Source: Patescibacteria group bacterium
GTDB lineage: Bacteria; Patescibacteriota; Minisyncoccia; JAHIHE01; JAGLIN01
NCBI GenBank assembly: GCA_029210775.1
Contig: JARGGI010000007.1
Coordinates: forward strand, 1-41,266
Length of the DNA: 41,266 bases
Reading direction: 5' to 3'
Positions 1-23,718 of this stretch are shown piece by piece (position 1 is the stretch's first letter; each line of letters starts with the position of its first letter). The translations under genes were made by a program, and so were the position numbers. A model generated the notes under the pieces. It did no database searches and was not told where the DNA came from. It was given only the letters and a program-made list of their open reading frames with translations.

Positions 1-29
1 GTAGAGTGTCAAATCATTATTCACTCTTG

Positions 30-138
30 TGTCATTGCGAGAGAGTTAAGCGACCGAAGCAATCCCATATTTAGCATCACATATATTGCGATTCGTAGTT
101 TATAATAATGTGATTGCCACGATCCGCTCGCAATGACA
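30..138. repeat. Interspersed palindromic repeat, copy 1 (TGTCATTGCGAG...CTCGCAATGACA)
   Basis: 12-bp terminal inverted repeat TGTCATTGCGAG / CTCGCAATGACA; second copy at 2279-2407. Confidence 0.8.
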
Positions 139-1652: not shown

Positions 1653-2111
1653 TTACTGAACTATTGCATGAATGTATATTATATTCTCAGTATATGTTTC
1701 GTAGCGGAATCTATAACCAATGGTATTGCTTCCACTATACAGGATTTGAGTTGTTTTTGACCAATAATATTCAACAGCAACTGACCTCCATACGTGCCAC
1801 TGATCATTTGGGTTTGCCATGTCTTTCCACGCAAATTCTATGATGGGTGGACCATACTTTGGATCATCTGGTTTCAGCAAATAAGACAAATCTGCATGCC
1901 AAGTAGAAAACATTCTATTTCCTTGTTGATAAGGATAGAAATTTATTTCTACAGTATCGCCTGGATGAAGCCAAAAACCTGTTTCCTGCCCAGTAATTAG
2001 CGGGGCACGCACTATTTCCGTTGCTTCCGCTGTCGTTGCCATGGCAAACATTGCCACTATTAGCAGTAATAAAACTACTGATATTCTCGCTTTATTTTTC
2101 TTTTTTGTCAT
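1653..2111 (-). CDS. Secreted protein of unknown function with signal peptide
   Basis: ATG preceded by GAGGTGAT; n-region KKKNK, hydrophobic core, cleavage near TTAEA. Confidence 0.8.
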   Translation of the reverse strand: MTKKKNKARISVVLLLLIVAMFAMATTAEATEIVRAPLITGQETGFWLHPGDTVEINFYPYQQGNRMFSTWHADLSYLLKPDDPKYGPPIIEFAWKDMANPNDQWHVWRSVAVEYYWSKTTQILYSGSNTIGYRFRYETYTENIIYIHAIVQ

Positions 2112-2175: not shown

Positions 2176-2230
2176 TTTTTTTTGTTTTTATTTTTAACGA
2201 ACTTTTTTATCACCTGCCTCAATATTTTCT

Positions 2231-2261
2231 ATAATAGCAAAAAAAAAATGTAGAGTGTCAA
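2231..2261 (-). promoter_or_regulatory. Poly-T-spacer promoter P1 (TTGACA-N19 with T10-TATTAT)
   Basis: rc: TTGACA CTCTACA T10 GC TATTAT; extended -10 TGC. Confidence 0.65.
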
Positions 2262-8164: not shown

Positions 8165-8222
8165 GTAGGCAGGAGTTGAGGAGAAGTTGGAGAGGGTGGA
8201 GAGATTGATGAAATGAAAATAT
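8165..8222. repeat. Partial copy of intergenic module (GGCAGGAGTTGAGG.GAAGTTGGAGA.GGTGGAGAG.TTGATGAAAT)
   Basis: Near-identical to 10346-10397; related to 15324-15360. Confidence 0.7.
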
Positions 8223-8291: not shown

Positions 8292-9143
8292 ATGCAAATT
8301 AAAAAAAATATATTAGACAATAGAAAATATATTTTAATCGCCGTGCTTTTAACCTTTGCTATTGGCGGAGGAATTTTAAGTTATTTTCTAAACAAAAAAG
8401 TGGCCGTGCCTGTTTCTCAAAAAGAAGATGTTAAAAAAGAGGAGATTCAGAAAGAAGAAAAAACTGCTCCTATTATTCCAATTCAACCAAAAGAAGAATG
8501 GAAAAAATACACTAACACTGAATCGGGTTTTTCAATAAAATATCCCGAGATGGTGTATGGAGTTTATAAATGCTCTCCCAAAAAACCATTCTATGTTCCA
8601 TTAAAAGTGCTTGAGGATAATGAAAATGGAATAGTTTATATTACGCAGGAATATTATTACAAAGCAAAATACGATAGTGAATTAAATGAATATACTGGAC
8701 CGTGTGAAAAAATAATAAATTCTTTAAAATATTTAAACAGTCAAAGAGAAATTATTATAGATATTAATGATAAAGCAAGTCTAAATTATAATTCTTTTCT
8801 AACAAAAGTTTTTATTATAAAAAACATAAAAAACGATATTGAACTGAACAAATTTATCAAAGATAATTATGGTCCAGGATGCTTCGCGGGCGAAAAAGAA
8901 TTATGGAAACAAGTAGGAGTTTACGAAATAAAAATAAAAGGCGAAGACTGGGGTCCAAAAACAGACTTAGGAATTACAAGCTGTCCATGGAACTACACTT
9001 ACAAAATTTTATACGCTCCTGAAAAAAATAAATTGATGTCAGTAAATCTCGGGCAAGAGTGTGGTTTCGGAACTAAATATATTTCAGAAGAATCGTATAA
9101 GTGCTATGATAATGAAATGATTGATAGTTTTCGATTTGAATAA
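8292..9143 (+). CDS. Membrane-anchored hypothetical protein, paralog of 340..1185
   Basis: Shared motifs GFSIKYPEMVYGVYKC, VPLKVLEDNENGIVYIT, LGQECGF, CYDNEMIDSF. Confidence 0.85.
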   Translation: MQIKKNILDNRKYILIAVLLTFAIGGGILSYFLNKKVAVPVSQKEDVKKEEIQKEEKTAPIIPIQPKEEWKKYTNTESGFSIKYPEMVYGVYKCSPKKPFYVPLKVLEDNENGIVYITQEYYYKAKYDSELNEYTGPCEKIINSLKYLNSQREIIIDINDKASLNYNSFLTKVFIIKNIKNDIELNKFIKDNYGPGCFAGEKELWKQVGVYEIKIKGEDWGPKTDLGITSCPWNYTYKILYAPEKNKLMSVNLGQECGFGTKYISEESYKCYDNEMIDSFRFE

Positions 9144-9226: not shown

Positions 9227-9850
9227 CTACGGAACTCTTACAATATAATAGTTGTCGGCATTACTAACACCAAAGCCAGATCGTTTTAACAAGTGTTTCC
9301 CTATTAAAAGTGGGCTAACATAATTCTGATCCCAAACATAGAAGCCATCAACAATCCAACCCCCATTGTATGTCCAGTGCCATTGATCAAATACTGCCAC
9401 ATGACCATAATATGTATGGGGATCTGAAAATGTTGCTATAACAGTTCCTCGCGTTATGCTTCCGTCGTCAAACACGCGATTTCCACGTTCCCAATCGCCA
9501 GATGAAATACCTCCAGTATTACTCATTGCTTTCGCAAAATCCACGCATTGGCCGTTTCCTATTCTTATAACAGTTGTTGAACCATATTGTACTGGGGTTT
9601 TACTCTTACCATATGTATTAAGAGTTTGACCATAATAATATTTTAGCAAATAAGGCTTCTGTCCTACACCGCCAGAATACCACGCGTTACTACTATAACC
9701 TCCATAAGTATATGTATATAGAAGGTTCACATTCTCTGTGGTCACTTTCAAATCGTGTGCGGCTTCCGCTGTCGTTACTGTCGCAAATACTGCCACCATT
9801 AGCAGTCCTGCAACTGCCAATATTATTGTTTTATTTATTTTATCTTCCAT
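9227..9850 (-). CDS. Secreted CHAP/BPSL0067-like cysteine hydrolase
   Basis: Signal peptide; GNGQCVDFAKAM (Cys), GTVIATF, YGHVAVFDQW (His), WIVDGFYVWDQNY; start set after GAGGTGAT SD. Confidence 0.7.
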   Translation of the reverse strand: MEDKINKTIILAVAGLLMVAVFATVTTAEAAHDLKVTTENVNLLYTYTYGGYSSNAWYSGGVGQKPYLLKYYYGQTLNTYGKSKTPVQYGSTTVIRIGNGQCVDFAKAMSNTGGISSGDWERGNRVFDDGSITRGTVIATFSDPHTYYGHVAVFDQWHWTYNGGWIVDGFYVWDQNYVSPLLIGKHLLKRSGFGVSNADNYYIVRVP

Positions 9851-9918: not shown

Positions 9919-9979
9919 CTTTTTATTTTTATTTATTTTTTCAACGAACTTTTTATCTCCCTCCTTTTGATATAAAACA

Positions 9980-10011
9980 ATAATAGCGAAAAAAAAAATG
10001 TGAATTGTCAA
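9980..10011 (-). promoter_or_regulatory. Poly-T-spacer promoter P2 (N20, T10)
   Basis: rc: TTGACA ATTCACA T10 CGC TATTAT. Confidence 0.65.
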
Positions 10012-10062
10012 ATTTTAAAAATAATTAATCATATTTTTTCTCTCAAAATTTCCCAATAAAAA

Positions 10063-10100
10063 GTAGTGTATTTTGCAACGGCCGTGAAAAAATACACTAC
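10063..10100 (-). terminator. Stem-loop upstream of promoter P2, terminator-like on minus strand
   Basis: GTAGTGTATTTT/AAAATACACTAC 12-bp stem; rc followed by TTTTTATT. Confidence 0.45.
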
Positions 10101-10259
10101 AGTAAAAATATTAAAATTAGTAATAAATCAATATGTAAATACGCAAAAGACTCCACTTGGGAGAATGGAGCCAGTTTAGCACAAAAGGCTCCACAGCCCT
10201 AAAGGGACTCATGGAGCCAGCGCCTAACTTTGTTATAAGTTATAGGTTGTAAGATAAAG

Positions 10260-10397
10260 TGTCGGGGCGCCGAGGTATACTTGGAAACAAATTTGGGGTG
10301 ATTTGGGTGGAGATTTTGGAGAATTAGGAGAGCCTGCCATTCGGCGGGCAGGAGTTGAGGGGAAGTTGGAGATGGTGGAGAGGTTGATGAAATAAAA
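10260..10397. repeat. Intergenic module copy 1 starting with tRNA-Pro 3'-end fragment
   Basis: TGTCGGGGCGCCGAGGTATA...CCTGCCATTCGGCGGGCAGGAGTTGAGGGGAAGTTGG...; homolog at 15232. Confidence 0.85.
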
Positions 10398-10507
10398 AAT
10401 AGTAAAGAAATTTAATGTATTGAGACAAGAAAAAAAAGAAAACAACAAATTGACTATTAACAATATAAATGATAAGCTTGGATTATTAAAATTTAATAAA
10501 TCCGCTT

Positions 10508-11179
10508 ATGAAACCAACAGACAAAAAATTTGTTAAAATTATTGCCTTAATAGTTGTTTTAATTAGTGCAGTTATTATAGTTCTGTCTTGTGCTTCCAAT
10601 AAATTTTTTCATGAATATAAATTTTTTGATTTATTATTTGTTCCTATAGAGCTAAGAACGACTATAGAGCATGAAAAAACTTTGGGCATTGAAACGGCAA
10701 AGATCTCTTATCGGAAAGAAAAAAAGCTAGATTTAATGATAAAGGAATCCATAAAAGCGCAATTGGAATATTATTCCACGGAAAAAGATGAGAACTTGGA
10801 AAAAGTTAAGGATTTGTATCTGCCAGATGGATTTGAACAATATAAAGAATTTACAAAAGAAAAAGTTTCCTCTTTAAAAAGTTTTTTAAATAAAGATTCT
10901 TCCTACAATAAAATTGTGAGTGAAACTTTTTCTTATAACAACATAAAAACAATCAAATTTAGCCAACCAAGAACATACAAAGGTTTGCCTGATAGAATTG
11001 GGATAATAAATTATGTTAATTTTATTAATAATCCCGGAGCCATAGATAGTGTTTTATCTCGTATCTTTATTTTTAAAAATATTAATGGAGAATGGAAGAT
11101 TGAAAAACAGAAAGAAATTTTAATACGCACAGAATGGGCAGAAGAATCATTGATTCAAGAAATTAAAGACGGAAAATAA
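10508..11179 (+). CDS. Membrane-anchored hypothetical protein
   Basis: 223-aa ORF with N-terminal TM segment. Confidence 0.75.
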   Translation: MKPTDKKFVKIIALIVVLISAVIIVLSCASNKFFHEYKFFDLLFVPIELRTTIEHEKTLGIETAKISYRKEKKLDLMIKESIKAQLEYYSTEKDENLEKVKDLYLPDGFEQYKEFTKEKVSSLKSFLNKDSSYNKIVSETFSYNNIKTIKFSQPRTYKGLPDRIGIINYVNFINNPGAIDSVLSRIFIFKNINGEWKIEKQKEILIRTEWAEESLIQEIKDGK

Positions 11180-11261
11180 ACAAAATAAAGAGAACATAAA
11201 ATAAATGTCCTCAAGCTTTGTTTGTTTAGTGCTTTGATATTCCAGATTTAGAATACTAATT

Positions 11262-11846
11262 TTAGTAATTGTGCGTATCCTTTAGGAGAAGTACTCTAAA
11301 TTGAATCTCTGGCTGCTCACGTATCAAATCTGATACTTTTTTATTGACCCGATTATTAGAGTGATATGTTACATACACATCTGTGCCATCAATTTTTGTG
11401 ATGATCATTGAATGATCCCATTTTCCATCGCTAGTCCAATCCGCTTGCATAACATCGCCGACTGTAAATTGCGTTGGTCTTGTCCAGACATCACTGCGTG
11501 AAAAAGGTATTTCTCTTCCTCTTCCTGAGAGAATGACAAAATCCCTAAACTGTTCTACGCTTGTCCATGAATTAGAGTATTGACGCCATAGATAGCTATC
11601 ATAGTACCATATCATGCCAGTTTTTCTTTGTGTCCAGCCACCAGCTTTTAGTGAATGTGACACAAAATTTGTACAATCACCACCACCTGTATTAAAATAC
11701 CACGAACCTGGTACATTTTTTTCTCCATTGGCTATGGCATAATTTACCGTTGTTTGACGATTGTATATGTACGCACTTGCTATTCCTGTACTGCTTGCTA
11801 TTATGGCTAATACCAACATAACAAGAACTACTTTCTTTACTTTCAC
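11262..11846 (-). CDS. Secreted Amidase_6-like (putative amidase domain) protein
   Basis: Signal peptide; YNRQTTVNYA, GGDCTNFVSHSLKAGGW (Cys), WDHSMIITK (His); GTG start after AAGAGGTGATAAG. Confidence 0.8.
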   Translation of the reverse strand: MKVKKVVLVMLVLAIIASSTGIASAYIYNRQTTVNYAIANGEKNVPGSWYFNTGGGDCTNFVSHSLKAGGWTQRKTGMIWYYDSYLWRQYSNSWTSVEQFRDFVILSGRGREIPFSRSDVWTRPTQFTVGDVMQADWTSDGKWDHSMIITKIDGTDVYVTYHSNNRVNKKVSDLIREQPEIQFRVLLLKDTHNY

Positions 11847-11866
11847 CTTATCACCTCTTATACTTT

Positions 11867-11942
11867 TTCGCAATTCTATCCCGCAAACTTTTTTAAGTTT
11901 GCCTTTTTATTTTTATTTATTTTTTCAACGAACTTTTTATCT
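11867..11942. repeat. Leader repeat identical to 9883-9958 (76 bp)
   Basis: ttcgcaattctatcccgcaaactttttt...aacgaactttttatct identical by eye. Confidence 0.9.
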
Positions 11943-11962
11943 TCCTTTTTTTGATATTTCAA

Positions 11963-11992
11963 ATAATAGCAAAAAAAAAGAGATGTTGTCAA
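11963..11992 (-). promoter_or_regulatory. Poly-T-spacer promoter P3 (N18, T9)
   Basis: rc: TTGACA ACATCTC T9 GC TATTAT. Confidence 0.65.
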
Positions 11993-12174
11993 ATCGCGAA
12001 GATAAGGATAAGTTTCAAAAACAGAGAAAATAAAAAAACAGGATAATAATAAGTGTTACCATACTGTTTTTGATTTTATAGTTCCAATAAAAAAACCGCT
12101 TTGAAACTCCCATATATCAAAGCGTTTTAAAAACATCGCGCCGTGAAAGCGAAAAGGTGGCAAAAAATAATTTT

Positions 12175-12203
12175 TGACCAAACCATTTTTGCTTGATAGA
12201 ATA
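12175..12203 (+). promoter_or_regulatory. Promoter TTGACC-N17-TAGAAT
   Basis: Upstream of ATG at 12238. Confidence 0.6.
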
Positions 12204-12237
12204 AAATTGGTTTTAGAAAAAATTAAAAAGATTCTTT

Positions 12238-12732
12238 ATGAAAAAACTTACTATAAATAAAATCATTCCCGCTATTATTGTATTTGTCTTAATATTTTTA
12301 TTTGTTGAATATATAACAGGTTTTGAATTCATCTTTTTTGATATATTAAGATACGTATCTCTTGTTGCTATGCCAGCAGGAATAGGGTTTGTGTTTGCCG
12401 TTCTTTTTATGGAGTTTGCAAAAAAAATAAATTCGGAAAAAATATTGAAATATACTTTATTCTTTTCTTTTGTTTTTTTATTGCTCTTATTTTCCTACCA
12501 TTTGATATATATTTATACTGATTTATTAAAAAACTTCTATAGCTACCATGATTTTGAACAATTTATTTATTACTACCGATATAAAGGATCGCTTCCATTT
12601 GGACAATTTTTTATAGATATTCTTACACTTCTTTTTATGCTTAATGCGTCTTTTATTGGATTTATATCAGGATTTATCTCTAATATTTATTTGAGCAATA
12701 TACCAAATCGAAAAATAAAAAAGAGAGAGTAA
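12238..12732 (+). CDS. Integral membrane protein, unknown
   Basis: 164-aa ORF with about 4 TM segments. Confidence 0.75.
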   Translation: MKKLTINKIIPAIIVFVLIFLFVEYITGFEFIFFDILRYVSLVAMPAGIGFVFAVLFMEFAKKINSEKILKYTLFFSFVFLLLLFSYHLIYIYTDLLKNFYSYHDFEQFIYYYRYKGSLPFGQFFIDILTLLFMLNASFIGFISGFISNIYLSNIPNRKIKKRE

Positions 12733-12768
12733 AAAAAGAAAACTCTCTCACAACTAAACTTTTGTAGT

Positions 12769-13191
12769 TTACATATATTTCCAATATTCGTGAGGTTTCA
12801 AGTCCTGATAGTAGTATTCTATACCCGAAACTGTTTTTCCAATCCAGGAATGGAACCAGATTTCTTCTTTTACCGAATAGAAAGTTCTTTCTTGTTTCCA
12901 CTCTGGAGTAGCCATAACAGAATACGTTATACTTCTAAGCAAGGATACATCTCCATTTCGAATAGCTTTTGCTCCCTCTTCTGTCAGATATAATCTACAG
13001 CCATAGCCATATCCTCTGTCGTATACCGTGTCATATTCTACACGATCTACATAGAGCTTGAGAGCAGATGTAATATCACTGTGCTCGTATTGTACTGCGG
13101 AATGCCCGTCAAAATCATTGTATGTTTTCGCCGAAGCTGCCGGCGTTAGCGATAGTGTCGCCACCAACGCTAATCCAAATATTACTACCAT
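12769..13191 (-). CDS. Secreted protein of unknown function, paralog of 14524..14953
   Basis: Hydrophobic signal, AASAKTY; motifs HSAVQYEHSDITSALKLYVDRVEYD shared with 14953 ORF. Confidence 0.8.
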   Translation of the reverse strand: MVVIFGLALVATLSLTPAASAKTYNDFDGHSAVQYEHSDITSALKLYVDRVEYDTVYDRGYGYGCRLYLTEEGAKAIRNGDVSLLRSITYSVMATPEWKQERTFYSVKEEIWFHSWIGKTVSGIEYYYQDLKPHEYWKYM

Positions 13192-13281
13192 TGTCTTTGT
13201 CGCTTTTATTTTCTCACCTCTTTTTATTTTTATGCCTCTGCGTCATTAGAAATAAAACATTGTTTCGTTTTTATTCCCTCT

Positions 13282-13328
13282 TCAGAGACAGTGAAAATTT
13301 TCTAAAATTTAAAAACTCACACTGTCTC
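13282..13328 (-). promoter_or_regulatory. 5'-leader stem-loop of 12769..13191
   Basis: AGAGACAGTG...CACTGTCTCT 10-bp perfect inverted repeat. Confidence 0.6.
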
Positions 13329-13374
13329 TAAAAATTTTAAGAGGCGTATTTTTTTATTTTATTTTTATTTTTGA

Positions 13375-13588
13375 ACGAACTTTTTATCTCCTCCTTTTAA
13401 TATAAAACAATAATAGCGAAAAAAAAATGTGAATTGTCAAATTTTAAAAATAATTAATCATATTTTTTCTCTCAAAATTTCCCAATAAAAAGTAGTGTAT
13501 TTTGCAACAGCCGTGAAAAAATACACTACAGTAAAAATATTAAAATTAGTAATAAATCAATATGTAAATACGCAAAAGACTCCACTTG
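13375..13588. repeat. Promoter-region duplicate, copy B
   Basis: Near-identical to 9946-10159; poly-A one nt shorter. Confidence 0.9.
13410..13440 (-). promoter_or_regulatory. Poly-T-spacer promoter P4 (N19, T9)
   Basis: rc: TTGACA ATTCACA T9 CGC TATTAT. Confidence 0.65.
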
Positions 13589-13641
13589 AAAGAATAGGCT
13601 AACAATAAAAAAAAATCGCTATGATAAACGATTATTTTGTG

Positions 13642-13780
13642 TGTCGGGGCGACGAGATGCAGTTAGAAATAATTCCACGTCTGTTTAGACTGGGAATTTT
13701 GGAGAATTAGAAAAGTCTGCCTGCCGTAGGCATATCCTGACTGTCGTATGCATAGCCTGTCTGCCGGAAGATTTCTTTAA
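13642..13780. repeat. Degenerate intergenic module copy 2 with CCTGCCGTAGGCAT tandem units
   Basis: TGTCGGGGCGACGAG, GATTTTGGAGAATTAG-like text, then 20-bp imperfect tandem units. Confidence 0.65.
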
Positions 13781-13813
13781 AAAGATTTATTAATATAATA
13801 AGTATACCCCGTC

Positions 13814-14404
13814 TTAATAAAATTCAGAGCATCTATGGAGAATTGAATGTTTAGTGTTTATCCATGCTCCAAAAAGTAAAAAATATGACGAAAAAACAAG
13901 AACTGTAAAAATAATAAGTTTATATTCGTTATAAAATTTTATTTTTAGATAACTTAAAACAACTATTACTAAAATAATGATTACTGTAGCTATTATAAAA
14001 GCGAAGAAAAGAGACGATGGAATAAACAAAAAAGAAAAGAAAAATGATAATAGCAGAAGAAAAAAAATGGAGATAGCAAATATTATAAATTTCAAAGACA
14101 ACTTTTTATTATAAGAAAATATTTTAAGAAAAATAAAAAGATACATTATTAAAACAAAAATTCCCGATAATACTATCATAAAAAAACCAAAAGGAATCAA
14201 TTTGTTATAAAGAAATATATAAAAATTAATTCCTCCAATTGGCTGAATTATGTTAAGACAGAATTCTTTAAAGTTTAAATTTATCGCGGCGATATCATTA
14301 TTGGCATAAAGTTCCACATAAAACAAAATAAATAAGCTTATAACAAAAGTAGAGCTTATAATAAATGACATAAAAAAATTTATTGTTTTTTTAGTGTTTA
14401 ACAT
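13814..14404 (-). CDS. Integral membrane protein, unknown
   Basis: 196-aa ORF, multiple TM segments. Confidence 0.7.
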   Translation of the reverse strand: MLNTKKTINFFMSFIISSTFVISLFILFYVELYANNDIAAINLNFKEFCLNIIQPIGGINFYIFLYNKLIPFGFFMIVLSGIFVLIMYLFIFLKIFSYNKKLSLKFIIFAISIFFLLLLSFFFSFLFIPSSLFFAFIIATVIIILVIVVLSYLKIKFYNEYKLIIFTVLVFSSYFLLFGAWINTKHSILHRCSEFY

Positions 14405-14469
14405 AATTGTAAAATAGATTATAGCTAAATAATTATATTATAATATTAATACACTTTAATCGTAATTTG

Positions 14470-14515
14470 AAAAAAATTAGAGAGAAAAATTCCGTTTTAA
14501 TTATTCTCTCTAACA
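14470..14515 (-). terminator. Rho-independent terminator
   Basis: TTAGAGAGAA/TTCTCTCTAA then T-run on minus strand. Confidence 0.65.
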
Positions 14516-14523
14516 ATTTTGCC

Positions 14524-14953
14524 TTACATTAGATTATAGGGTGTTTCCCATGATTTCAGGTCGGCATAACGATATTCAATATCTACTACCATTCTGTTAG
14601 GCCAAATACCATGTTGAATAATCTCGTATTTTACCGAACGAAGAGATCTATCGCCAGACCATTCTGGAGCATACATAACATTATATGCAATTGATTCAGC
14701 AAGGTTTGGATAAAACAACAGCTGTTTTGCCCCAATCTGTAAAGTATAGCCTAGCACCAGCTCCTGAAGAACATACTATATCATACTCAATATGATCGAC
14801 AAACGGTCGAAGCGCTAACGAAATATCACTATGTTCATATCTTACTGCATCATGCCCCGCAAATGTATAATAGGTCTTTGCCGAGACTGGTGCTATCATT
14901 ACGCATAGCAATATTAGAAATATCGCCATTGAAATTATTGTTCTTATTCTCAC
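14524..14953 (-). pseudogene. Frameshifted secreted-protein gene, paralog of 12769..13191
   Basis: Two overlapping ORFs (14696..14953 and 14524..14757) align consecutively to the intact paralog; shift near GGGG at 14730-14733. Confidence 0.75.
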
Positions 14954-15089
14954 TTTATCACATCCAATTTATTTTGTCTGTATTTTCTATATTTCTTTCT
15001 ATTTTCAATTTATAAGCTATTCAACTGACAATTATATTTTATTTTTGTTTTAATAAATTACAGACTATCACCTCCTTTAATATAAAACA

Positions 15090-15120
15090 ATAATAGCAAA
15101 AAAAAAATGTGAATTGTCAA
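15090..15120 (-). promoter_or_regulatory. Poly-T-spacer promoter P5 (N19, T10)
   Basis: rc: TTGACA ATTCACA T10 GC TATTAT. Confidence 0.65.
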
Positions 15121-15231
15121 ATTTTCATATTTTTTTCGCAACTGAGTATAATAAATATATATATAAAGCTCCAATTGAAAGAATAGGCTAACGATATAAA
15201 AACAATCGCCAAAGTGGCGATTATTTTTATG

Positions 15232-15360
15232 TGTCGGGGCGCCGAGGTATAGTTGGGAACAATTTCCTGGCGACTTGGGCGAGGATTTTGGATAATTGGG
15301 AGAGCCTGCCATTCGGCGGGCGGGAGTTGAGGGAAAGTTGAGGAGGTTGATGAGATAAAA
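15232..15360. repeat. Intergenic module copy 3
   Basis: TGTCGGGGCGCCGAGGTATAGTTGGGAAC...CCTGCCATTCGGCGGGCGGGAGTTGAGGGAAAGTTG. Confidence 0.85.
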
Positions 15361-15531
15361 AAAGAATAGGGAGATTTAATATATTTGAATAAAAAAATAA
15401 CCAGAAATTAGATTTATGATTTTTCTAATTCTAGCTTTATGATTTATTGTTTCAAGTTTTATGTTTCAAGTTATTTTTTATCATCTCCGTGATTTGTTTT
15501 TTGTGTTTTCTGATGTTGGGATTTCTATCGC

Positions 15532-17490
15532 TTAACTATTCTTCGCCGTTTCCAGATCTTGCAAAATCTGATTCGCTTTTTCTTTTAGCGTTTCCGCGTC
15601 AGGCTGCATGATTTTTTTGTTATACTGGGCATTGACTTGGTTGATGAAAGCATTCATCATATTTTGCGCGGTATTCAGATTGTTGCCGAATTGCTTGTCA
15701 TCATCTGTGCTAATAATAGCTTGATCAACTTTAGTTTCGACGTTTGTCAGTTTTGCGAGTAGCGCGCTCTTTATTCCTGAATCAATGCCTGAACTATCTG
15801 TTAATTCAGATAGCCACTGGATTTCCAGCTTAGAATATTCCACCATACTTATTTTGTCAGCTTTGACTTTCAATTCCGCGGATGAAGTGTTGCCGATGCT
15901 TGTGTCTGTCGTTGATATTGCGGTGACATTGAAAGTATAAACCACATCTTCCATGCCAGCCCAATTTTGCGGGACATTTATTTCAAGAGGCCTGATTTCC
16001 GACATTCCTGGATCTATCGTAATTTGGGTGCTATTAAAAATAACCCAGGACGGCTGAATAGTTGCTGGGTATCCTCTTTGAAAACCAAAGTTTTTGAGTT
16101 CCAAGGAAATATTGTATTCATCGGCTATGTTGCCAAAGTTGGTTATATTAACCGAATAGCTTGCGAAATTTCCCGCGGTTGTTTCGGCGGATTCTGGAGT
16201 AATACTCACTATAACTCCGCGATTTTCCGGAGGTTCGCTAATATCGCCGATTGCCTCAAGGATCGCTGCCACGACATCATTCGCCGTTGGGGAAGTATAG
16301 ACATTTCCGTTAGTGCCTTCTGATATTTCAGCAAAAGCGTCATAAGCGGATTCAGATGATCCAATTATTATGCTGTAAACAATAACGGGGTCAATGCTTT
16401 CTGATGTTGATATGACATCCGCTAAAGTATGCCCGCCTGACCATGGTTCAGGAATGTGCGGAGGCGCGTCTCCCATTATGATAATGGCTTTCGTCACTCC
16501 ATTTCTCCAGCCGCTATTAGCGCTGTTTACTGGATCTTTATCCGGATCTTCCATAGAATGGACGAGCGCTGAATAAACTGATTCAGGTTCATCCGCTCCC
16601 CATCCAAGGCTTAACCCATTAATTGCACTAATAATGGAATCTTTGTCGTTTGAAAATGGCAGATCAAGATTATAGACATAATCGCTTGATCCTCCATATG
16701 GCAATTTAGGATAATCTCTATAATCAGCAATAGCTACCCGGTAATCCAACCCTTCGGAATTCAAAGCTTCAACAATCTCATTAGCCGATACTTTCACTGC
16801 GTCTATGTCATCCCACATACTTCCAGTGGTATCTACGAGGAAAATGAGGTCAAGCTTAGGTTGTATTGGGATTGACTTTTTAATCACCACTACAACAGCG
16901 CCACCCTGAGAATTCATAGCATTTGAAAACTGTGTATTATCATAAGTTATTACGCCATTTGTTCTTCCTGGATCATTAGTAATAATACCAGTAGCCGTAT
17001 ATCCTTTTGCTACAAGGAAGTGTCCGCCATAGGATTGCCCAAGAGGTGCACCAGTTACAGCAACAATAACGGGATGTCCTGCGTCAATTTCTTGCTTAAC
17101 TCTTGCCACTGTCCATCCGCTTGCCTTATAACTATTTGGGAAACCACCATATTCTATAGCTAAAGTTTCAAGTATCGCAATATCTGTATTAGATCCATTA
17201 TAGTCATTTATTGCCTGTGAACTTCCATACTCTTGAAAAAGCCAATCATCAATATCTTTAATTCCTTGATCCGTCGGAATAGTTCCATCATAGAAAGAGT
17301 ATATCATCAGCGAAGATGTTTGTCCGCAATTTTTAGTTTCACTCCAAGTTCCTGGCGGAACTTGTGATTTAAATGGAACATCAAGAGGATTGCTATATGC
17401 TCCGGCTAAACCAGTCAATAGAATCAGTCCCATTACGACAAAAGCCATCGTTCTTAATATCAGTCCCGTACTTCTATTCTTTTCTGTCAT
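15532..17490 (-). CDS. Secreted multidomain protein: C39-like peptidase + VWA + alpha-galactosidase NEW3-like domain + helical C-terminus
   Basis: NPLDVPFKSQVPPGTWSETKNCGQTSS, GGHFLVAKGY, NDPGRTNG; LIFLVDTTGSMWDDI (MIDAS); start at MTEKNRS after GAGGTAAAAGAG. Confidence 0.85.
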   Translation of the reverse strand: MTEKNRSTGLILRTMAFVVMGLILLTGLAGAYSNPLDVPFKSQVPPGTWSETKNCGQTSSLMIYSFYDGTIPTDQGIKDIDDWLFQEYGSSQAINDYNGSNTDIAILETLAIEYGGFPNSYKASGWTVARVKQEIDAGHPVIVAVTGAPLGQSYGGHFLVAKGYTATGIITNDPGRTNGVITYDNTQFSNAMNSQGGAVVVVIKKSIPIQPKLDLIFLVDTTGSMWDDIDAVKVSANEIVEALNSEGLDYRVAIADYRDYPKLPYGGSSDYVYNLDLPFSNDKDSIISAINGLSLGWGADEPESVYSALVHSMEDPDKDPVNSANSGWRNGVTKAIIIMGDAPPHIPEPWSGGHTLADVISTSESIDPVIVYSIIIGSSESAYDAFAEISEGTNGNVYTSPTANDVVAAILEAIGDISEPPENRGVIVSITPESAETTAGNFASYSVNITNFGNIADEYNISLELKNFGFQRGYPATIQPSWVIFNSTQITIDPGMSEIRPLEINVPQNWAGMEDVVYTFNVTAISTTDTSIGNTSSAELKVKADKISMVEYSKLEIQWLSELTDSSGIDSGIKSALLAKLTNVETKVDQAIISTDDDKQFGNNLNTAQNMMNAFINQVNAQYNKKIMQPDAETLKEKANQILQDLETAKNS

Positions 17491-17709
17491 CTCTTTTACC
17501 TCATATCTTTTTTCTATATCTCCCAGTTTTATCTTTCGAAAAAACAATTCTTTATTATTTTTTAAAGAACAATTTTCTCCTCATCAAAACAAAAACTGTG
17601 TTCCGCCTGCAAGTTTTTTTATTAAAGATTAAAAAATCATATAGATCTCAACCCTTAAACTTGTAAGCAGAACTGGGATTTTGTTTTAGGAATTAATTTA
17701 TTTTTTAAT

Positions 17710-22850: not shown

Positions 22851-23549
22851 TTATTTTTGATTTTCTACAAATAAACTATGATACATACTTGCTCCGCCTC
22901 TGCCTTTTCGATGTCCATTATTTGACAACATTTCCCATACTTCATAAAATCTATTATATCCCGGATAAAGAAAATTATCCTCAAGGTAAAACACAATGTC
23001 TTCAGAAGACATTTTAAAATATTTTAACAATTCTTTTGGTGTAACACATCTTTTACTTAATTTTTTATCTATCCTTTTGATTTCTTCTTCACTATAGCTT
23101 ATGTTATTAAATTTAGAAGCATAAAAGAAAAATCTAACAATTTTATCTTTTTTTTTGCCACCATTGCCATTTTCAGTCTTAGCCCTATTGCCATTTTTTT
23201 CTTTCTTATCACACATTTGATAGTCTTCCCTTAAAATTTCAAATTTTAGTTTTCCTAAAACTTCGGTTGGAAGAAGATCGCCGACTTTAAAAATATAATT
23301 AAAATTATAATGTAACTTCTTAAGAATCTTTTTTGTATTATCTACATCAATTCTACTGAGCAATAGACATATTCTGTCAATTTCTGCTTTTTTTCCGCTC
23401 TTTTTTCTGTTTTTGCTTTCCGCAATTTTTCGCAGTATTTCAATCTTGATTGTTAAAGGAATTGTATGATGATAATTAAATTCATCATTGCTAACATCCT
23501 CTTTAAATAAATAACTATCTTCCTTAATAATATCACGAAATATTCCCAA
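22851..23549 (-). CDS. Hypothetical protein
   Basis: 232-aa ORF; TTG start after AGAGGAGGTTGATG. Confidence 0.65.
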   Translation of the reverse strand: MGIFRDIIKEDSYLFKEDVSNDEFNYHHTIPLTIKIEILRKIAESKNRKKSGKKAEIDRICLLLSRIDVDNTKKILKKLHYNFNYIFKVGDLLPTEVLGKLKFEILREDYQMCDKKEKNGNRAKTENGNGGKKKDKIVRFFFYASKFNNISYSEEEIKRIDKKLSKRCVTPKELLKYFKMSSEDIVFYLEDNFLYPGYNRFYEVWEMLSNNGHRKGRGGASMYHSLFVENQK

Positions 23550-23718
23550 TTACATCAACCTCCTCTTTTAAATTTTAAAAGAACAAGATATACCCTCCTT
23601 GTTCTTTTTTGTTTTATCTATATTTTCTATTTTTATTTCTGCCTATATTTTATCATTATTAAAATATAAGTCAAAATAATATAACTGCGCTAAAAAGTAT
23701 GACTTTTCAAATCAATCT

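Follow-up and report, generated by a model that had tools for sequence, protein, structure and literature searches.

We analyzed a 41,266-nucleotide (nt) stretch of DNA (the window), which is contig 63 (JARGGI010000007.1) of the 1.17-Mb assembly GCA_029210775.1 of a Patescibacteria group bacterium, and which contains five minus-strand promoters with a long poly-T tract in the spacer between the −35 and −10 boxes. The original prediction interpreted these promoters as the basis of a phase-variable secretome. Our analysis confirmed the sequence observation itself, in that all five promoters read TTGACA-N7-T9/T10-(C)GC-TATTAT and lie exactly where they had been described, with the spacers of 19, 20, 18, 19 and 19 nt that had been given:

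2231 to 2261, minus strand: promoter 1, TTGACA-19-TATTAT, T10 (tract 2239 to 2248)
9980 to 10011, minus strand: promoter 2, TTGACA-20-TATTAT, T10 (tract 9989 to 9998)
11963 to 11992, minus strand: promoter 3, TTGACA-18-TATTAT, T9 (tract 11971 to 11979)
13410 to 13440, minus strand: promoter 4, TTGACA-19-TATTAT, T9 (tract 13419 to 13427)
15090 to 15120, minus strand: promoter 5, TTGACA-19-TATTAT, T10 (tract 15098 to 15107)

A signal-peptide gene had also been proposed behind each promoter. This holds for four of them, where an intact open reading frame (ORF) has a signal-like N-terminal segment (1653-2111, 9227-9850, 11262-11846 and 12769-13209), and not for the fifth (15090), which precedes a frameshifted gene:

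1653 to 2111, minus strand: secreted-type protein of 152 amino acids, no Pfam family, with homologues in the related genomes G006 (frameshifted), G007 and G009
9227 to 9850, minus strand: secreted-type protein, CHAP-like (E = 4.6e-4, under the Pfam cut-off)
11262 to 11846, minus strand: secreted-type protein, Amidase_6 (PF12671, E = 2.2e-29)
12769 to 13209, minus strand: small protein of secreted type, probably starting with ATA at 13209 (the first ATG is at 13191)
14545 to 14953, minus strand: frameshifted paralogue of 12769-13209, downstream of promoter 5

The gene at 12769-13209 is likely to start at this ATA codon (context GAGGTGAGAAA-ATA-AAA-GCG), a start that yields a proper signal-peptide n-region, and no Shine-Dalgarno (SD) sequence is present before the first ATG.

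Counting the pattern TTGACA-N7-T8-N2-6-TATTAT in the window gave five matches where 0.00 were expected (100 dinucleotide shuffles), and the genome-wide search that the original prediction had called for, carried out with a slightly looser version of the pattern, found no further match in the rest of the assembly, i.e., the five window sites are the only ones in 1.17 Mb. The promoters at 274, 8225, 12175 and 22776 were also as described, with a TTGAC-type box, a 17-nt spacer, TAGAAT and no long tract, and spacers of 16 and 17 nt are the commonest among the TTGACA/TATNAT promoters of this genome. The spacers of 18-20 nt in the poly-T promoters arise because a T9-T10 tract is set in a fixed frame of N7 and (C)GC. 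The five promoters are not independent cases, because those at 9980, 13410 and 15090 are duplicates: 9990-10166 and 13419-13595 form a 177-nt block with 98% identity, and the core of the 15090 promoter is common to both of these copies.

Between promoter and start codon lies a leader in which an SD-like site, GGAGGTGA, close to the predicted 5′ end of the RNA is followed about 5-13 nt on by a boxA-like motif, GTTCNTTNAAAA. With the transcription start as predicted, this element lies in the transcribed leader, about 100-190 nt ahead of the start codon. It is present downstream of the poly-T promoters, in degenerate form in some, and at two further sites in the window:

2191 to 2202, minus strand: boxA-like GTTCGTTAAAAA, preceded by SD-like GGCAGGTGAT
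9938 to 9949, minus strand: boxA-like GTTCGTTGAAAA, preceded by SD-like AAAAGGAGGG (about 9959-9968)
11922 to 11933, minus strand: boxA-like GTTCGTTGAAAA, preceded by a degenerate SD-like AAAGGAAG
13369 to 13380, minus strand: boxA-like GTTCGTTCAAAA, preceded by SD-like AAAAGGAGGAG (about 13388-13397)
15048 to 15062, minus strand: degenerate boxA GTAATTTATTAAAAC, preceded by an intact SD-like AAAGGAGGTGAT (about 15067-15078)
17559 to 17570, minus strand: SD-like GATGAGGAG with boxA GTTCTTTAAAAA and without a long T tract, upstream of 15532-17547, which encodes a secreted C39/VWA protein
23573 to 23584, minus strand: SD-like AAGGAGGG with boxA GTTCTTTTAAAA, ahead of the gene 22851-23549 (signal peptide not seen), no long T tract

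The SD-like site is of the AAAGGAGG type in the 9980, 13410 and 15090 leaders and weaker in the 2231 and 11963 leaders, and none of the five promoters' leaders has an AUG, GUG or UUG behind it at a spacing suited to initiation. The 15090 unit thus combines an intact promoter with a degenerate boxA and a frameshifted gene.

The boxA consensus with which GTTCNTTNAAAA was compared, GYTCTTTAANA (PMC5725501), is gamma-proteobacterial, and hence we examined the organism's own rRNA operon (contig 11). Its 16S leader contains a single boxA-like site, AATATAAAGTTCATTAACAAATG, with the motif AAGTTCATTAACAAA, located about 100 nt behind a TTGACA-16-TATTAT promoter. The core of this site (AAGTTCATTAACAAA) matches the core of the mRNA leaders (AAGTTCGTTNAAAA), and is also matched by leaders of the relative G005, ahead of its CHAP homologue (TAAAAGTTCATTAAAAAG) and its amidase homologue (AAGTACATTAACAAAAT). 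Given this agreement with the organism's own rRNA leader, we read the mRNA-leader motif as a boxA, i.e., a NusB-S10 loading site. The 16S rRNA ends in GGATCACCTCCTTT at its 3′ end, and GGAGGTGA is therefore a perfect anti-SD match. In addition, the genome encodes nusB (tblastn E = 6e-19, contig 33) and the 5′-3′ nuclease RNase J (TIGR00649, 573.7 bits).

A 12-nt boxA pattern has 27 matches in 724 kb of the genome; for 6 of them an SD-like site lies no more than 20 nt upstream, compared with about 1 at control positions. This excess is suggestive rather than decisive of an association, because two of the six are copies of each other through duplication and another (L233) possibly falls within coding sequence. 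On contig 64 (position 2077), an SD-like site and boxA followed by a hairpin, without a long T tract, lie ahead of a gene for a 193-amino acid product, and the first 6 kb of this contig contain several further boxA-like sites.

Homologues were located by a protein search of genomes of the family, and their upstream DNA was then read. Since a direct pattern search with the long SD-leader consensus, allowing 3 mismatches, gave only one site, we also built a profile of promoter and leader and searched it over 286 genomes of the class. At E < 1e-12 this profile matched the five own sites and sites in G005, G006 and G007, with a second match in G007 at E = 3e-6; weaker matches were found in G011 and G017 (both T6, the latter ahead of a frame for a membrane protein), G010 (T5) and G002 (no tract), among others, and most of the remaining matches, at E of 1e-4 to 1e-2, are probably chance. 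Upstream of the homologues located by protein search, G005 has two T9 tracts and one site without a tract, G007 has T8 and T7, and G006 has T8; the G007 orthologue of the gene behind the 2231 promoter has T8 and a 17-nt spacer. The part common to the credible relatives is the leader AGGAGGNGATAAAAAGTTCNTTNAAAA, which starts about 11-22 nt after the −10 box, close to the expected 5′ end of the RNA, and about 100-240 nt ahead of the start codon. A leader of SD plus GTTCNTT was met by protein homology alone in G007, in G006 and ahead of the CHAP homologue of G005, whose leader has AAAGGAGGTGTTATAAAAGTTCATTAAAAAG although a T tract is lacking there, and by the motif model in G011 and G010. The G011 leader is followed by a gene of the Amidase_6 type that is homologous to 11262-11846 (41% identity, E = 5e-23), and the G010 leader precedes a gene whose product starts with a signal peptide. 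SD and boxA are kept across genera where the flanking DNA has diverged, and on these comparisons the longer-conserved element is the SD-boxA leader, which was absent from the original prediction. In G006 (contig 20, L022/L025), the orthologue of 1653-2111 has frameshifts and a weak −10 box (TATTAA), as if promoter and gene were decaying together. The rRNA operon of G005 was not found in the approximately 259 kb of stretches searched.

Our preferred reading, to which we give a probability of about 60%, is that these secreted-protein genes share a duplicated strong promoter and an SD-boxA leader that would keep transcription processive and the mRNA stable. The first part of this putative module would be a vegetative (sigma-A-type) promoter whose T-rich spacer abuts GC-TATTAT, and the second a leader with a 5′ SD-like site, boxA and mostly a hairpin, followed by the real SD and the start of the secreted protein. 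BoxA in the nascent leader may load NusB-S10 onto RNA polymerase, as in an rRNA operon, so that the polymerase would transcribe the long, AT-rich leader and the gene processively. The 5′ SD-like site, mostly without a usable start codon, would bind 30S subunits, and a bound 30S subunit could slow 5′ decay by RNase J, as for the STAB-SD of cry3A (PMC4113751). The T tract is best regarded as a spacer element of drifting length, which stands at T9-T10 in this lineage; slippage in it might adjust promoter strength as a lineage-specific tuner, a step in which we have low confidence. The loss of boxA in the 15090 copy, whose gene is frameshifted, counts in favor of this reading.

Several points weigh against it. 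BoxA is imperfect in two G005 members (GTACATTAAC and AAGTATAAACA), its position in G007 (contig 21) reads GTTTTTTAAAA, and the G009 homologue lacks the module, its gene being located inside a ribosomal operon. The motif match of four relatives is not independent evidence, because they were found by a model trained on that motif, and some of the 27 boxA matches will be chance, because boxA is short. In addition, the boxA effect may be repression, the reverse of our proposal, because the boxA of E. coli suhB represses (PMC5725501).

Under the phase-variable reading of the original prediction, slippage of the T tract shifts spacer length within a range of about 17-20 nt and so sets the expression of each secreted protein independently, in a phase-variable or graded manner. 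We find this interpretation partly supported but not established, and regard it as unlikely. A shared module does head secreted-protein genes, and the spacer differences are due to the tract, with T8 giving 17, T9 18-19 and T10 19-20 nt; for example, the near-identical duplicates at 9980 and 13410 differ by one T (T10 vs T9). In the 724-kb genome sample, T10 is the longest A/T run and 3 of the 9 runs of 10 are in these promoters, the other six occurring in 683 kb elsewhere. A MutS domain was not found in the assembly, which is estimated to be 100% complete, and most control genomes gave a match. Given tracts at the genome maximum and no MutS found, slippage at them is predicted to be mechanistically easy. 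There are also precedents: an intergenic tract of 9T vs 10T at Spy1336/R28-Spy1337 of S. pyogenes alters expression (PMC7098570), and both there and at H. pylori sabA (PMC4081817), as here, the control region of a gene for a surface protein carries a poly-T tract about 9-10 nt long or longer. In these two systems, variation of tract length in the population and a change in expression have been shown, whereas both would be predictions for the window tracts, and the sabA tract lies beside the −35 box (PMC4081817), whereas the window tracts lie inside the spacer.

Against the phase-variable reading, the long homopolymer is not kept in the homologous promoters, where it is T9 in two and otherwise T8, T7, T6 or none. 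The window tracts equal, and do not exceed, the general homopolymer maximum of 10 in the genome sample, in which no A/T run of 11 or more occurs; this ceiling is sharp although MutS was not found. An extended −10 (TGC-TATTAT) in 3 of the 5 promoters should blunt the effect of spacer length, and one of the genes is already frameshifted. Moreover, the same T8-T11 layout drives housekeeping genes elsewhere. A scan for TTGAC-N8-T8-N0-3-GC-TATNAT that took one genome per species from many bacteria and archaea gave at least 117 matches, and 106 of the 117 matches listed have a spacer of exactly 17 nt, with tracts of T8 to T11. This sharp peak indicates that the listed matches are real promoters, and the genes behind them, as judged by eye from translations, include guaB (in many Lachnospiraceae), rplU, rpoB and tRNAs. 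Promoters with a T run directly against GC-TATNAT are thus a common form of ordinary sigma-A promoter. These ordinary promoters hold the spacer at 17 nt, with no tracking of run length among the listed matches (correlation 0.06), unlike the window promoters, where spacers are 18-20 nt.

Less probable still is that the promoters and leaders are hitch-hiking remnants of recent gene duplication with ordinary constitutive expression only. Large DNA repeats do join the copies, and paralogous genes and broken copies are present, but SD and boxA are kept across genera despite diverged flanks, and the leader matches the rRNA-leader motif. One further repeat involves promoter 1:

1 to 103, minus strand: second copy, 95% identical over 103 nt, of the DNA upstream of promoter 1, truncated at the contig edge

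The plus-strand genes 274-1185 and 8292-9143, which lie between secreted-gene units, are paralogous (77% DNA identity over 251 nt), which suggests larger duplicated blocks. An intergenic repeat (GTGTCGGGGCGCCGAGGTATA...GCCTGCCATTCGGCGGGC...) recurs upstream of several units, at 10259-10398, 13682-13721, 15231-15370 and 8168-8219, and at 1259-1307, where ORF 1293-1544 has its 3′ end, there is a relic copy of the segment that forms the leader hairpin (GCAAATCTGAGAAAGTTTGCGGTATTGAATTGTGAA), with no gene behind it.

We give the same low weight to a translational attenuator, in which the first SD serves a tiny ORF and Nus-boxA competes with ribosomes, providing feedback by translation or secretion status: a UUG follows the SD by 4-9 nt in several members, with tiny ORFs such as UUG-UAG (G007, G006) and UUG-UUC-UUU-UAA (23573), and suhB provides a precedent for competition between boxA and SD (PMC5725501), but the five promoters' leaders lack an AUG, GUG or UUG suitably placed after the first SD.

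Other candidates were rejected. A known RNA family was dismissed, the Rfam matches in the window being one tRNA only, as was a leader peptide: lysine- and asparagine-rich frames are alike in the 2231 and 9980 leaders, with no start codon at a usable distance and with the frame broken in the other copies. A leader hairpin, GCAAACUU...AAGUUUGC, is present in the 2231, 9980 and 11963 leaders and both G007 leaders, and a different hairpin in the 13410 and G011 leaders; as a conserved structure it was set aside, since G006 shows a single compensatory change (A-U to G-C) and mismatches occur as well.

The SD-boxA leader resembles two known systems. In E. coli suhB, a boxA in the 5′ untranslated region beside the SD represses translation (PMC5725501). 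Both organisms encode nusB, and in both an mRNA leader has an rRNA-type boxA within a few nt of an SD sequence. In suhB, however, the boxA is 6 nt from the gene's own SD and represses, whereas here the SD-like site and then boxA lie near the predicted 5′ end, far from the start codon, and what follows are genes for secreted proteins of a Patescibacteria-type bacterium. In cry3A of Bacillus thuringiensis, the STAB-SD, an SD-like site near the 5′ end, protects the mRNA (reviewed in PMC4113751). As here, it lies about 100 nt before the start codon without directing translation, in an organism that also encodes RNase J; boxA is not described there, and for the window leaders stabilization would be a prediction. 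We found no description of the arrangement of SD plus boxA in an mRNA leader in the open-access literature on boxA in mRNA leaders, most subscription papers being outside this search. The SD-boxA leader on secreted-protein mRNAs is a case of known parts in a new combination and setting.

To our knowledge, very little is known of the control of secreted proteins of Patescibacteria, which are probably used on neighboring cells. Caution is also called for before a poly-T promoter spacer is taken for a phase switch, as the layout is common in housekeeping promoters. We put forward, tentatively and as a doubtful proposition, that a family of Patescibacteria may place an rRNA-type boxA behind a 5′-terminal ribosome-binding site on an expandable set of secreted, hydrolase-like proteins, which would tie the secretome to the Nus/S10 pool and, through it, to ribosome synthesis; T tracts prone to slippage would add per-gene variation in this MutS-less lineage. 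The shared SD-boxA leader offers a concrete hypothesis for the control of secreted proteins that can be tested with reporters and, if it is true, Nus-factor control would extend beyond rRNA to a set of secreted proteins.

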